Shown here in pieces: positions 26,979 through 34,651 of a stretch of 64,000 nt of DNA (position 1 is the stretch's first letter; every line of letters starts with the position of its first letter). The DNA is from Pedobacter duraquae (GTDB lineage Bacteria; Bacteroidota; Bacteroidia; Sphingobacteriales; Sphingobacteriaceae), in the NCBI RefSeq assembly GCF_004362245.1, contig NZ_SNWM01000002.1, positions 372,001 through 436,000 on the forward strand. The letters are read 5' to 3'. Made by a program: the position numbers and the translations under genes. The notes below the pieces were generated by a model. That model made no database searches. It was not told where the DNA came from and worked only from the letters and a program-made list of their open reading frames with translations.

Positions 26979-28427
26979 ATGATTAAAAGAGAAAAAATAA
27001 AAAGCTTACTGGAAACCACAGCGTTTGATAGAGAAGTTACTGTGATGGGTTGGGTGCGAACCTTCCGCAACAACCAGTTTATTGCGATCAATGATGGATC
27101 GTGCATGGCAAATATTCAGATTGTTGTAGATTTCGCCAATACGGATGAAAGCTTGCTTAAGAGAATCACCACTGGTGCTGCTATAGCAGTGACGGGAGTT
27201 CTTGTTGAATCTCTGGGTAAAGGACAAAAGGTTGATGTGAAGGCCACCACTATAGAGATTCTGGGAGACAGCGATCCTGAGAAGTTTCCATTGCAACCAA
27301 AAAAACATAGCCTTGAATTTTTAAGGGAGATCGCTCACTTGCGTTTCAGGACCAACACTTTTAACGCTGTATTTAAAGTTCGTCATGCATTGGCTTTTGC
27401 TATCCATAAATTTTACAACGAACGTGGCTTTGTCTATATGCATACCCCGGTCATTACAGCCTCAGATGCTGAAGGTGCCGGAGAAATGTTTAAAGTAACC
27501 ACGCTTGATTTTGATAATACACCGCGAACTGAAGATGGCAAGGTTGATTTCTCCGAGGATTTCTTTGCCAGGGCTACAAATTTAACCGTATCCGGACAAC
27601 TGGAAGGTGAGCTTGCTGCTATGGCCTTCGGTCAGATCTACACATTCGGACCTACATTCAGGGCTGAAAACTCAAATACAACGCGTCACCTCGCAGAATT
27701 CTGGATGATTGAACCTGAGGTTGCTTTTGCCGACCTGGAAGACAACATGCAGCTGGCAGAGGACATGATGAAATATGTGATTACTTATGCGCTGGAAAAC
27801 TGTGCTGATGAAATCGATTTCTTAAACACAAGGTTACTTGAAGAAGAGAAAACGAAACCACAGAACGAACGCAGCGAACTGAGTCTGATCGATAAGCTCA
27901 GGTTCTGTCTGGATAATGATTTTGAGCGCCTAACGTATACAGAAGCTATTAAGATCCTTAAATCTTCAAAACCAAACCAAAAGAAACAGTTTAAATACCT
28001 GATTGACGAATGGGGCGCTGACCTGCAATCGGAACATGAACGCTTCCTGGTAGAGAAACATTTCAAGAAACCAGTAATCCTGACCGATTATCCTGCAGAT
28101 ATCAAGTCGTTTTATATGCGTCAGAACGAGCCAGATGCTGAAGGCCGTCAAACTGTTGCTGCAATGGATATCCTATTCCCTGGAATCGGCGAAATGATTG
28201 GTGGCTCACAACGTGAGGAGCGACTGGATCGTTTAACAAAACGTATGGAAGAGATGCATATTCCGCAGGATGAAATGTGGTGGTATCTGGATACCAGAAG
28301 ATTTGGAACAGCACCACATGCAGGTTTTGGGCTTGGCTTTGAACGGTTGATTCTATTCGTGACTGGTATGACCAATATCAGGGACGTAATTGCGTTCCCA
28401 CGTTTCCCTAAAAACGCAGAGTTTTAA
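26979..28427 (+). CDS. asnS: asparaginyl-tRNA synthetase
   Basis: A 482-aa class IIb synthetase. An N-terminal OB-fold anticodon domain (about 1-110, [11 protein letters not shown]) precedes the catalytic domain with motif 2 ([22 protein letters not shown] region) and motif 3 ([12 protein letters not shown]). The absence of the large insertion and the NTTRHLAEF sequence distinguish it from AspRS and LysRS. It charges tRNA-Asn directly. A 100-residue lysine/glutamate-rich insert at about 275-345 is typical of this group. Single-gene unit ending in a strong terminator. Confidence 0.95.
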
Positions 28428-30862: not shown

Positions 30863-31633
30863 TTAAGCTGTAAAAGCTTTCATAAATTCGGCAATTCCAG
30901 TTGAAGAGCTATCTTTTTCCAGGGAACTCACAAATGCTGTCCCTATAATAGCACCGTTAGCATACTGACAGGCCTTATCAAATGCAGCTTTACCGTTTAT
31001 GCCAAATCCAATCATTTTAGGATTCTTCAGGGGCAAGGCTGCTATCCTGCTGAAGTAGTCTTCTGTATTTTGTGACAGCTGCAGGTTTTTTCCGGTAGTA
31101 GCCGAGGACGATACCATGTAAATGAAACCGTTGGTTAAGCTATCAATTTTATGAATTCTTTCTACGGTAGTCTGCGGTGTAACCAAGAATACGTTACTGA
31201 TACCATATTGTTCAAAGATATTTTGATAAAACTCTTCATATTCGACCATCGGAAGGTCGGGTACAATAAGTCCATCCACCCCCACTTCGACACAGGATTT
31301 ACAGAAGTTTTCCACGCCATATTGTAGCAATGGATTTACATAGCCCATCAGCAGCACAGGAATACTTACTTCCTGACGCAAGGTTTTAAGTTGTTCAAAC
31401 AACAACTTAAGATCCATACCAGCATCCAGTGATTTTTTACTGCTTGCCTGAATTACCGGTCCATCGGCAACAGGATCTGAATATGGGAACCCGATTTCCA
31501 GCATATCGGCACCAGCAAGTTCCAATGCTTTTGCTATGCGAACGGTATCAGATAATTCCGGAAACCCGGCAGTATAGTAAATAGACAGGATGTTATTTTT
31601 CTTCTCCTGAAACAATTGATTAATTCTGTTCAT
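30863..31633 (-). CDS. trpA: tryptophan synthase alpha subunit
   Basis: The 256-aa TIM-barrel protein cleaves indole-3-glycerol phosphate to indole and glyceraldehyde 3-phosphate. The catalytic Glu and Asp are present in MLEIGFPYSDPVADGPVIQ (around residues 45-63), and the phosphate-binding GFGINGKAAF and GTAFV segments near the C-terminus are intact. It is the last gene of trpD-F-B-A, 10 bp after trpB. Indole would be channelled to TrpB. Confidence 0.96.
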   Translation of the reverse strand: MNRINQLFQEKKNNILSIYYTAGFPELSDTVRIAKALELAGADMLEIGFPYSDPVADGPVIQASSKKSLDAGMDLKLLFEQLKTLRQEVSIPVLLMGYVNPLLQYGVENFCKSCVEVGVDGLIVPDLPMVEYEEFYQNIFEQYGISNVFLVTPQTTVERIHKIDSLTNGFIYMVSSSATTGKNLQLSQNTEDYFSRIAALPLKNPKMIGFGINGKAAFDKACQYANGAIIGTAFVSSLEKDSSSTGIAEFMKAFTA

Positions 31634-31643
31634 TTTGCTGCTA

Positions 31644-32825
31644 TTATAAGCCGAAATATTTCATGTAGGTATCCATGTCTTTGTCTCCCCTACCGGAAAG
31701 GCATACGACAACGTTTTCATTTCCTTTAAAGTCCATTTTTTCCAGGTAGGCTAATGCGTGTGCACTCTCGATAGCCGGGATAATTCCTTCCATTTGGGTA
31801 CATAACAATCCTGCATCCAGTGACTCTTCATCTGTAATAGATACATATTTTGCCCTCAGGGTTTTAAAGAGGTGTGCGTGTTGCGGACCTATTCCCGGGT
31901 AGTCAAGCCCGGCAGAGATGGAAAATGGCTCTACCACCTGCCCGTCTGTTGTCTGCATTAGGATACTTCTGCTTCCATGCAGTACACCCTCTTTCCCGAG
32001 TGCTGTAGTAGCTGCCGAGTGTCCACTCCCAACACCTTTCCCTGCTGCCTCAACAGCAATCAACTGTACACCTTCATCATTGATAAAATGATAAAACATG
32101 CCCATAGCATTACTACCTCCACCTACACAGGCAAGTACATAATCTGGCTGATCAGATCCCGTTTGTTCCAGCAATTGTTTTTTTGTTTCTTCAGAAATCA
32201 CCGACTGGAAAACGGAAACCATATCAGGATATGGATGCGGGCCTACTACAGAGCCGATAATATAATGTGTATCTACAGGATTGTTAACCCAATCGCGCAT
32301 AGCCTCATTAGTAGCATCCTTTAATGTTTTTGACCCTGAGGTTGCTGGTACAACTTTGGCTCCCAGCATCTTCATCCGCGCTACATTTGGTGCCTGGCGC
32401 TCTATATCAATCTCTCCCATGTAGACTACACATTCCAGTCCACGTAACGCACAAACGGTTGCTGTAGCCACACCATGTTGACCTGCACCTGTTTCAGCGA
32501 TGATACGTGTTTTACCAAGTCTTTCTGCGAGTAAGATCTGTCCGATTGTATTGTTGATCTTATGAGCTCCTGTATGGTTCAGGTCTTCCCTTTTCAAAAA
32601 GATATTTGCACCATATTTTTTCGACAAGCGCTTAGCCAGGTATAATGGCGAAGGTCTGCCTACATAGTCTTTTAATAACTGATGAAATTCCTTTTGGAAA
32701 TCCGGCTCATTAATTTTAGCCAGATAGTTCTGACGGAGCTCTTCTACATTGGGATATAACATTTCAGGGATGTATGCTCCGCCGAAGTCTCCGTAATAAC
32801 CTTTATCATTTACAAAATAGTTCAT
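31644..32825 (-). CDS. trpB: tryptophan synthase beta subunit
   Basis: The 393-aa PLP enzyme joins indole and serine to make tryptophan. The PLP Lys is in [11 protein letters not shown] (about residue 84), with GETGAGQHG and the glycine-rich [10 protein letters not shown] phosphate cup and the C-terminal LSGRGDKD. Length fits TrpB1. It is 18 bp downstream of trpF and 10 bp before trpA, so all four trp genes likely share one transcript controlled by the leader at 34491-34612. Confidence 0.97.
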
Positions 32826-32843: not shown

Positions 32844-33488
32844 TTAGGCCTGAAGGCCATAGAGGTTTGTTTTAAATGTTTTTATCTGTGCTATATTTTT
32901 CAGTCCGGGTTCCAGTTCGAATTTACTATTGATATCAATAGCGTACAACGCCGGATGGTTTAAAGCCTTGATTTCGTCCAGGTGTTCAAGGCCGATTCCC
33001 CCGCTCAAAAAGTAAGGCTTTTCTCCGCTATATTGTTTCAATTTTTCCCAGTTAAATGATTTACCGGATCCTCCGTGTGCTGGCGTTTTGGTGTCAAATA
33101 AAAAGTAATCAACTACATTGTCATACGTATGCAGCAGGTCAAAGTTAAATTCCTCATCAATCCCAAATGCTTTGATTACCTCTATATCAGGAAATTGAAT
33201 CTTCAGTGACTCGCAGAGTTCCGGAGTTTCAGCACCATGTAGTTGTATTGTCCTTAAGCCGAAATCTTTAATAGTCCCGGCAATTGTTTGCAAATCTGAG
33301 TTTACGAATACACCCGTTGTTTTAATCCCTTTCGGCAAATGCCGCACCTGTTCTGCCACAAGCGCCCCTACATAACGTTTTGATTCCTTATAGAATATGA
33401 AGCCCATATAATCCGGTTCCACCTCAGCCAGTGCCTGGATATTATCCGGATTTTTCATTCCACAGACTTTCAATTTAATGTGCTGCAT
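32844..33488 (-). CDS. trpF: phosphoribosylanthranilate isomerase
   Basis: The 214-aa protein catalyses the Amadori rearrangement of PRA to CdRP. The N-terminal KVCGMKNPDN holds the catalytic Cys, the catalytic Asp is in FLFDTKTPAHGGSG, and the phosphate sites are GGSGKSFNW and LSGGIGLEH. It is a stand-alone TrpF, not fused to TrpC, and trpC is absent from the place between trpD and trpF where it is often found. One base separates it from trpD. Confidence 0.95.
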   Translation of the reverse strand: MQHIKLKVCGMKNPDNIQALAEVEPDYMGFIFYKESKRYVGALVAEQVRHLPKGIKTTGVFVNSDLQTIAGTIKDFGLRTIQLHGAETPELCESLKIQFPDIEVIKAFGIDEEFNFDLLHTYDNVVDYFLFDTKTPAHGGSGKSFNWEKLKQYSGEKPYFLSGGIGLEHLDEIKALNHPALYAIDINSKFELEPGLKNIAQIKTFKTNLYGLQA

Positions 33489-33489
33489 A

Positions 33490-34479
33490 CTAATTGTTGA
33501 TCAATGTGGTAAATGCTTTCAAGGCTTTTTTACCCATCAGGGATTCCTCGGCTTCATAGAAACAATCAGCGAAGGAAAGATCCGGCTTAATAGTTTGAAT
33601 AGCGAGTGCTGCATTGCAGAGGACAACGTTATGTTGTGCATCCGTTCCTTCAGCATTCAATATATTTCTGAAGATCGTTGCGGAAGATTCCACAGTGTCA
33701 CCACCTTTGATATCCATTTCATTTAGCTGCTCGAAGCCAAGATCACTCACCTTTCTAAGTGACTCTCCTTTTTTACTGAAAGTTTTAAAATCGCAGGTCA
33801 ACGATACTTCGTCAAAGCCATCAAGCGCATGTAGGATAGTATAGTTCTTATCCGTTTCCTGATACAGGTAACCATACAAACGCGCGAGTTCCAGACTGAA
33901 TACACCTACCAGTTGATTCTTGGGTTGGGCGGGGTTACACATAGGCCCGAGCATATTGAAGAAGGTTTTCACACCAAGTTCCTTACGTATCGGTGCCACG
34001 GTTTTCATTGCAGGATTAAAAAGTGGAGCATGAATGAAGCAGATCCCTGCCTGATCCAGATTGCGCTTTAAAATATCCTGATCGTTGGTGAAACGGTGAC
34101 CAAGGTATTCCATCACATTAGAAGAGCCGCAGCCAGAAGAAACGCCGTAGTTACCATGTTTGGCAACCTTATTTCCTGTACCGGCAACTACAAAAGAAGC
34201 CAGGGTTGAGATATTGAAGGTATCCTTGCCATCACCACCTGTTCCGCAGAGATCGATTAATTCAAAATCGGAGAAACTAAGCGGAATACAGAGATCAAGC
34301 ATAGCATCTCTAAAGCCCGCAAGTTCATGAACCGTGATGTTGCGCATTCCGTAAGCGGTAATGAAGGCTGCAATCTGCGCGTTATTGTATTCTCCCTGCG
34401 CTATCGACGTTAGGATTTTACGTGCTTCAAGCCTGCTAAAGCTTTTATTTTCAAAGAGGTGATTCAGTATTTTCTTCAT
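33490..34479 (-). CDS. trpD: anthranilate phosphoribosyltransferase
   Basis: The 329-aa protein transfers phosphoribose from PRPP to anthranilate. The PRPP loop LCGTGGDGKDTFNIST (about 74-89), the KHGNYGVSSGCGSSNVMEYLG stretch and the RKELGVKTFFNMLGPMCNP region with anthranilate-binding residues are present. It is the first structural gene after the trp leader: its ATG is 12 bases past the T run of the attenuator. trpE and trpG are not found upstream. Confidence 0.95.
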   Translation of the reverse strand: MKKILNHLFENKSFSRLEARKILTSIAQGEYNNAQIAAFITAYGMRNITVHELAGFRDAMLDLCIPLSFSDFELIDLCGTGGDGKDTFNISTLASFVVAGTGNKVAKHGNYGVSSGCGSSNVMEYLGHRFTNDQDILKRNLDQAGICFIHAPLFNPAMKTVAPIRKELGVKTFFNMLGPMCNPAQPKNQLVGVFSLELARLYGYLYQETDKNYTILHALDGFDEVSLTCDFKTFSKKGESLRKVSDLGFEQLNEMDIKGGDTVESSATIFRNILNAEGTDAQHNVVLCNAALAIQTIKPDLSFADCFYEAEESLMGKKALKAFTTLINN

Positions 34480-34490
34480 GGGTATAAAAC

Positions 34491-34558
34491 AAAAAAGGCT
34501 GCTTAAAAAAGCAACCCTATAGTATTTTTAGTAAAAAAACGACAAACAAAGGGTTACA
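34491..34558 (-). promoter_or_regulatory. trp attenuator (antiterminator and terminator)
   Basis: In the minus-strand RNA, GUAACCCU (plus 34557-34550) can pair with AGGGUUGC (34518-34511), an 8-bp antiterminator. The alternative is the terminator GGUUGCUU / AAGCAGCC (34516-34509 and 34504-34497) followed by six U. Upstream, GGU...CAC...CGC can pair with GCG...GUG...ACC across the leader stop codon as a pause hairpin. This is the complete 1:2, 2:3, 3:4 arrangement of ribosome-mediated attenuation. Stalling at the Trp codons would free segment 2 and allow readthrough into trpD. Confidence 0.88.
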
Positions 34559-34612
34559 CTACGCTATTGCGCTGTGCCACCACCATTGAGTTAAAACGTT
34601 TTTCTGTATCAT
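34559..34612 (-). CDS. trpL: trp operon leader peptide
   Basis: A 17-aa frame reads MIQKNVLTQWWWHSAIA and stops at TAG (34561-34559). Three consecutive TGG codons sit where a stalled ribosome would cover the 5' arm of the pause hairpin. The frame lies 80 bases before trpD and is followed by the antiterminator and terminator, which is why it is called a leader peptide and not a chance frame. It has no visible Shine-Dalgarno site; a possible -7 box (34628-34621) would start the RNA only a few bases before its ATG. Confidence 0.88.
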   Translation of the reverse strand: MIQKNVLTQWWWHSAIA

Positions 34613-34620
34613 TCTGTAAG

Positions 34621-34651
34621 CAAAGATGGAATTGTTTTTAGTATTTGCAAA
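34621..34651 (-). promoter_or_regulatory. candidate trp promoter
   Basis: On the minus strand TTTG (34651-34648), 19 bp, then CATCTTTG (34628-34621; one mismatch to TAnnTTTG). It lies in the 72-bp gap between the hydrolase gene and trpL. Confidence 0.5.

Follow-up and report, generated by a model that had tools for sequence, protein, structure and literature searches.

The window, by which we mean the whole 64-kb stretch of Pedobacter duraquae DNA that was analysed, carries the genes trpD, trpF, trpB and trpA in that order on its minus strand, separated by intergenic gaps of 1, 18 and 10 nt. They were assigned as follows:

33490 to 34479, minus strand: trpD, anthranilate phosphoribosyltransferase (TIGR01245, 283.3 bits, cut-off 199)
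32844 to 33488, minus strand: trpF, phosphoribosylanthranilate isomerase (best NCBIfam matches are the trpF models, below their cut-offs, 159 of 215 bits)
31644 to 32825, minus strand: trpB (TIGR00263, 589.6 bits, cut-off 392)
30863 to 31633, minus strand: trpA, the last trp gene of the operon (TIGR00262, 211.7 bits, cut-off 102)

The initial annotation placed an attenuator before trpD rather than trpE and took the downstream half of the pathway to be tuned on its own. An internal attenuator of one long operon is ruled out, because trpE, trpG and trpC lie together on another contig of the same genome. The proposal survives in that trpDFBA appears to have an attenuator of its own, and has to be amended in that trpD heads a separate operon, trpC goes with trpE and trpG, and trpE is preceded by its own leader.

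The candidate attenuator region (34491-34612, minus strand) sits directly before trpD, between that gene and an esterase-like gene. Its elements, with the promoter-like site in front of it, are the following:

34621 to 34651, minus strand: Bacteroidota-type promoter-like site, TTTG, 19 nt, CATCTTTG (consensus box TAnnTTTG, from which the first base departs)
34559 to 34612, minus strand: leader ORF MIQKNVLTQWWWHSAIA, ATG at 34612, 17 sense codons, stop codon TAG at 34561-34559
34577 to 34585, minus strand: three consecutive Trp codons TGGTGGTGG, the proposed sensor (from the sequence)
34556 to 34577, minus strand: hairpin H1 (segments 1:2), directly after the Trp codons and enclosing the leader stop codon (from folds)
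34550 to 34557, minus strand: segment 2, 5' strand of the antiterminator, GUAACCCU, overlapping the 3' arm of H1 (from duplex energy and pairing kept in relatives)
34511 to 34518, minus strand: segment 3, 3' strand of the antiterminator, AGGGUUGC, doubling as the 5' arm of the terminator (from the duplex and the alignment)
34491 to 34518, minus strand: intrinsic terminator (segments 3:4, 34518-34495) with six U (34496-34491) (from sequence, pairing and covariation)
34533 to 34605, minus strand: possible outer helix that would pair 34605-34597 with 34541-34533 and enclose the Trp codons and H1 (from the minimum-energy fold)

The last base of the third Trp codon is also the first base of H1, and the start of trpD follows the terminator stem by 15 nt. 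The antiterminator, GUAACCCU with AGGGUUGC, consists of 8 pairs and shares segment 3 with the terminator, so that the two exclude each other. On folding, the 122 nt of the region gave -34.8 kcal/mol (z -3.5, with none of 200 shuffles as good) and the terminator -12.5. The antiterminator duplex came to -12.4, where shuffles averaged -6.6 and 3 of 200 did as well, while H1 taken alone was modestly better than shuffles of the window sequence (15 of 200 as good). The outer helix was not better than shuffles in the window sequence (66 of 200 as good). It is supported group-wise, the mean shuffle rank (0.5 expected) being 0.22 over 82 leaders of Sphingobacteriaceae type and 0.12 over a further 38; these sequences are related to one another, and the 38 include one locus twice and one Sphingobacteriaceae trpE leader. 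Across the window TGGTGGTGG is seen 3 times against 0.34 expected, and a scan of its whole length for a promoter-like box, a short ORF and a terminator returned three candidates, among which this region is the only one with a run of a single codon. The coordinates given in the initial annotation, and its description of a 17-codon leader with three TGG codons, a stop codon spanned by a hairpin, an antiterminator of 8 bp and a six-U terminator before trpD, are thus correct on sequence and folding.

Conservation and pairing in related trpD loci

A scan for TrpD gave 589 loci, the best 80 of which were kept; by their titles they belong to Pedobacter, Mucilaginibacter, Sphingobacterium and their kin. 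Among these best 80, at least two adjacent Trp codons are present in a leader before trpD in 79: 77 have three in a leader-like frame, two have two, and one has none. The 77 include locus L025, in which the contig start cuts off the leader ATG and the Trp run is present. The Trp-run leader lies within 450 nt of trpD in 76 of the 80 and at about -490 in L031 and L032. In 82 tabulated leaders the third codon is Trp in 79, the first two being present by selection, as the leaders were found by TGGTGG. Behind trpD in the same best 80 loci we found TrpF in 80, TrpB in 78 and TrpA in 69 (some loci end before TrpA), and matches to TrpE, TrpG and TrpC in none of the 80 within the flanks of up to 5 kb per side, at least 4 kb of upstream sequence being covered in 76.

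The 5' stem of the terminator begins 56-74 nt after TGGTGG in all 77 leaders compared (the window and 76 loci), whereas terminator and trpD are anywhere from 12 to 272 nt apart in the same leaders, which indicates that the unit from leader to terminator is held together and the rest drifts. The conservation of the Trp-run leader across the 80 loci is the strongest check that the observation of an attenuator, read here from sequence, is real. The initial annotation had named the lack of a conserved leader before trpD in relatives as the finding that would speak against it, and the feature is kept in 79 of the 80 loci. The one locus lacking the run, L082, has a strong terminator at about -240 before trpD (match starting at 1272) and no TGGTGG within 1,000 nt upstream; it may represent a possible loss of attenuation, as judged from a scan for TGGTGG.

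Pairs were counted on an alignment of 79 leaders. H1 and the terminator together are paired in 90.4% of cells. Both-side changes are present in 88 cells, where shuffles gave 35 (none of 500 as high), and in 9 of 17 pairs, where shuffles gave 6.2 (5 of 500 as high). Taken separately, H1 is paired in 83.3% of cells, with both-side change in 6 of its 8 pairs, and the terminator in 96.7%, with 3 of 9. When the partner strand was slid by 1-3 columns, at most 49% of cells were paired, a control that favours the proposed structure in that this was read off the same sequences; the slide by -1 gave ten pairs with some both-side change against nine unslid, with 23 such cells. The antiterminator pairing 2:3 is kept in 83.3% of cells among the relatives. 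Covariation beyond the make-up of its columns was not found (8 both-side cells, 115 of 500 shuffles as high, slid versions 6-26), a plausible reason being that segment 3 has to pair with two different strands. Judged by energy, 55 of the 77 leaders have an antiterminator that passes the shuffle test at the 5% level and 22 do not. Leaders of the L021-type clade have a weak one of about -5 kcal/mol, matched or bettered by 35-58 of 200 shuffles, and L070 is without one by duplex energy (196 of 200 as good). The comparison with relatives for WWW and covariation suggested in the initial annotation came out well for WWW (77 of 80 loci) and for H1 and the terminator, but not for the antiterminator, which has no extra covariation. 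The residue after WWW alternates between His, Leu and Pro across leaders while the pairing is mostly kept, so that the constraint at this position looks to be on the RNA.

Predicted switching and the start of the transcript

Switching was followed in a thermodynamic masking model, in which a ribosome footprint of 33 nt is hidden and the transcript ending after segment 3 is folded. Averaged over 77 leaders, the expected antiterminator pairs amounted to 10.1 with the first and 10.2 with the third Trp codon in the A site, 1.8 with the ribosome at the stop codon and 2.3 without a ribosome. The model put the antiterminator higher with the ribosome on the Trp codons than at the stop codon in 77 of 77 leaders, and higher than in the ribosome-free state in 75 of 77. 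Walking the ribosome along the leader, with codons counted from the first Trp codon, gave 4-8 pairs at codons -8 to -4, 9-10 from -3 to +4, 5.4 at +5 and 2.0 at +6. The antiterminator would thus form for a ribosome halted anywhere from -3 to +4, and the specificity would rest on the codons and not on the fold. With the middle segment shuffled, the value for the third Trp codon falls to 4.2, and 125 of 1540 such shuffles equal the real difference.

The promoter-like site is an exact match to the pattern scanned for; with one mismatch allowed, this pattern is expected 0.79 times by chance in the window, which makes the match weak by itself. In all 77 leaders a box [N]AT[N]TTTG stands ahead of the Trp codons, at 5-17 nt from the leader start in 76, and TTTG, TTGC or TTGG follows 18-20 nt further up in 72 of 77, on a scan that ran without a chance control. 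In Flavobacterium psychrophilum the TAnnTTTG sigma-A box is reported to span -12 to -5 (PMC9723704); placed in the same way, the box in the window predicts a start at about 34616, which would leave some 4 nt of 5' UTR ahead of the leader ATG. For F. psychrophilum the same report puts the median 5' UTR at 24 nt and the share of leaderless mRNAs at 5.5% (PMC9723704), and about 3.7% of 5' UTRs are given as below 10 nt in B. thetaiotaomicron (PMC7366714). Short 5' UTRs being rare in these two species, the nearly leaderless starts predicted here would be unusual in the phylum. Pedobacter antarcticus (L033), in which the promoter-like box stands 54 nt away from the leader ATG, would offer a natural variant with a long UTR.

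The trpEGC leader and the spread of Trp leaders in the class

In the same genome a second leader, MINNIHTWQWRGFSEKSSVEALCTL, lies on contig 5 (725-802) with trpE-G-C behind it, a box TATTTTTG 6 nt before its ATG and a terminator with seven T. TrpE was searched for over 59 genomes and the best 30 loci were taken, that of P. duraquae included. All of these best 30 have a frame starting with MI and containing W-x-W (x being Q, L or H), followed by a terminator 80-93 nt after the first Trp codon; a narrower search found the leader in 20 of them. TTTG stands 6-7 nt before the leader ATG in 30 of 30. By these promoter-like boxes, both trpD and trpE leaders are predicted to start only a few bases into nearly leaderless mRNAs, the predicted 5' UTR being about 2 nt for trpE.

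The trpEGC leader probably works as a second attenuator, so that the other part of the pathway would be sensed too. An antiterminator on the trpE side was not established among the 30 loci, the duplex with the 5' arm of the terminator beating shuffles at the 5% level in 10, to which P. duraquae (25 of 200 as good) does not belong. It is tempting to suggest that Sphingobacteriaceae keep two independent, nearly leaderless attenuators, WWW for trpDFBA and W-x-W for trpEGC, with different set points for pathway entry and completion. We rate this suggestion doubtful, and have marked it down slightly because the trpE-side antiterminator is not established. If it were true, the near-absent 5' UTR would make antitermination need ribosome loading at the extreme 5' end and close coupling of transcription and translation, a dependence for which no test was found in the literature searched on the phylum. 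As the pathway has two Trp leaders of different build, whether their set points differ is open to direct testing.

A covariance model built from the trpD leaders matches 98 of 121 genomes of the family at E<=1e-5, the model having been built from the same family, and 144 of 295 genomes of the class at E<=0.01. To count all 144 as attenuators would overstate the case. The 30 best class matches all have at least two adjacent Trp codons in a short frame, and 20 of 40 further matches that were fetched have a Trp-rich leader, namely 18 with an ATG and adjacent Trp codons (L179 among them is the same locus as L123), L158 with a TTG start and L156 with W-C-W; the other 20 are without one and are, by eye, mostly terminators at gene ends. 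Seven weak matches examined in the P. duraquae genome itself likewise have no Trp leader. Leaders with adjacent Trp codons and of similar build thus occur in at least 17 families of the class, to which the two irregular leaders would add two labels. The first trp gene behind the 30 best class matches is trpD in 10, trpE in 17 and trpB in one (trpE following), and there is none in two, where the sequence ends within about 230 nt.

Two of the class matches deserve mention on their own. In L123/L179, from another family, trpB is preceded by a WWW leader that scores above the cut-off of the Rfam family RF01692, and trpE is matched at a greater distance. A weak match on the reverse complement of L185, at about 270-340, has a leader-like frame containing HGHHH (MNNAQNIHGHHHSIRMHGSFLF) and a terminator, and looks from its sequence like a His attenuator of similar build.

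Proposed mechanism, alternatives and known systems

We consider it very probable that the region is a ribosome-mediated transcription attenuator of trpDFBA that senses the charging of tRNA-Trp. This reading rests on the conservation of the Trp run, the covariation of H1 and the terminator, the switching in the masking model and the trp genes directly behind, and also on the Trp leaders that precede trpE or trpB elsewhere in the class. The proposal of the initial annotation is thus strongly supported by anatomy, conservation and covariation, all of them features of sequence, and its word classic is right as to the kind of attenuator; it makes no mention of the nearly leaderless start. For the trpDFBA leader we infer the transcription start, translation of the leader, stalling, read-through and the response to tryptophan. 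RNA polymerase would start a few bases ahead of the ATG of the leader, giving a nearly leaderless RNA on which a ribosome would load. When charged tRNA-Trp is scarce, the ribosome would stall on the three UGG codons and cover the 5' arm of H1, leaving segment 2 free to pair with segment 3, and transcription would continue into trpD-F-B-A. When it is plentiful, the ribosome would reach the stop codon and cover segment 2, and the 3:4 terminator would end transcription before trpD. With no ribosome, H1, perhaps together with the outer helix, would hold segment 2, so that termination would be the default.

The residues before WWW are often Asn in the leaders of relatives, their codons varying synonymously, and for the leaders as a group the bases that encode them show stronger pairing to the linker behind segment 2 than shuffles show. 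Selection of the leader peptide for its amino acids was not concluded, as RNA pairing of the same bases may be the cause. The gene at 26979-28427, which we take to be asnS, lies 2.4 kb from trpA, and in the masking model the Asn codons lie where a stall gives the antiterminator. Co-sensing of Asn was considered and set aside: positions -3 to -1 of the leader in the window are free of Asn, and asnS turned up in one of the 80 loci; with flanks that stop about 5 kb beyond trpD, it would often go unseen. The nearness of asnS to trpA and the Asn codons in leaders are possibly a coincidence.

By analogy with Sinorhizobium meliloti, where the pathway is split and a WWW leader starting at its ATG gives products that act in trans (PMC7298713), the leader RNA or peptide of the same attenuator might likewise have targets in trans, in the second trp operon or among other genes, in the manner of rnTrpL and peTrpL. 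The frequent Asn before WWW with varying codons would suit such a role, but this conservation may stem at least partly from the RNA pairing, and each operon has its own leader, which makes coordination in trans unnecessary; we regard the extension as improbable. Still less credit is due to a fixed, unregulated partial terminator with accompanying hairpins, in which the Trp-rich ORF would be due to chance or vestigial. Similar terminators are indeed common at gene ends (the 20 of 40 further class matches without a Trp-rich leader) and L082 has the terminator only; against this, the Trp run recurs in 79 of 80 loci at a near-constant distance from the terminator, H1 and the terminator covary, and the antiterminator competes with both. 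Other bacteria control trp genes by TRAP or T-boxes. Control of trpDFBA through the 5' region by a trans-acting regulator or another RNA sensor (a TRAP-like protein, a T-box or a repressor), with the leader peptide incidental, is just as remote, since the conserved feature is the Trp codons themselves and Rfam at gathering score gives only tRNAs over the window, the best match near the leader down to E 10 being Trp_leader, although a repressor acting on the promoter in addition would be compatible with attenuation.

Attenuators that read the position of the ribosome need it close behind RNA polymerase. The leader in 79 of 80 loci, together with Trp leaders in at least 17 families, suggests that transcription and translation are coupled in Bacteroidota, and the conserved Trp leader would be a ready reporter for such coupling.

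In the literature, Naville and Gautheret (2010, PMC2965389) stated that they knew of no leader-peptide system demonstrated in bacteria other than Proteobacteria and Actinobacteria, with the exception of ermC. The transcriptome of F. psychrophilum is described as giving strong clues for leader-peptide attenuation before amino-acid operons (PMC9723704), and a Bacteroid-trp RNA before the trp operon of this species is discussed elsewhere (PMC6414381). Neither an attenuator on the trpD side nor a pair of trp attenuators was found described for Sphingobacteriaceae in a search that left out most subscription papers, and searching for Pedobacter with trp operon returned no paper. The kind of attenuator is already known; what the analysis adds is the related, uncatalogued trpD-side group, the Trp leader of trpEGC, the predicted nearly leaderless start and the spread across the class.

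The closest known relative is Bacteroid-trp (RF01692), described as 'Bacteroidete tryptophan peptide leader RNA' and stemming from Weinberg et al. (2010, PMC2864571). The trpD leaders share with it the phylum, a Trp-rich leader ORF before trp genes, a hairpin around the ORF and a terminator. They differ in the compact H1 right after WWW and in their place before trpDFBA, and RF01692 did not match the window leader at E<=10 (701 nt around the leader) or any place in the P. duraquae genome under strict filters. Across the 121 family genomes RF01692 gave 30 matches at E<=0.01, all of them at places also matched by the trpD-leader model, and 6 above its cut-off of 49 bits. Among 14 loci given to the Rfam models, L122 scored 88.5, L128 71.3 and L123 63.4 with RF01692. 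The trpD-side element is therefore a Bacteroid-trp-like attenuator in kind and, by sequence, probably a divergent relative, which falls below the Rfam criterion for membership. The result is an annotation gap, the trpD-leader model (built from the family) matching 98 of the 121 genomes against 6 with RF01692 above its cut-off.

With the Trp operon leader RF00513, the best Rfam match in the 701 nt around the leader (27.9 bits, E 0.0018), the window leader has in common the Trp codons, a hairpin and a terminator. It differs in a score under the gathering cut-off of 41, in its three Trp codons, where the trp leader of E. coli has two, in standing before trpD and not trpE, and in being predicted as nearly leaderless. 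The trpLE(G) attenuator of S. meliloti resembles it in the WWW leader, the split pathway and a transcript reported to begin at the leader ATG (PMC7298713). In S. meliloti, of a different phylum, only trpE(G) is described as attenuated, with rnTrpL and peTrpL acting in trans (PMC7298713), whereas in P. duraquae both operons carry Trp leaders.
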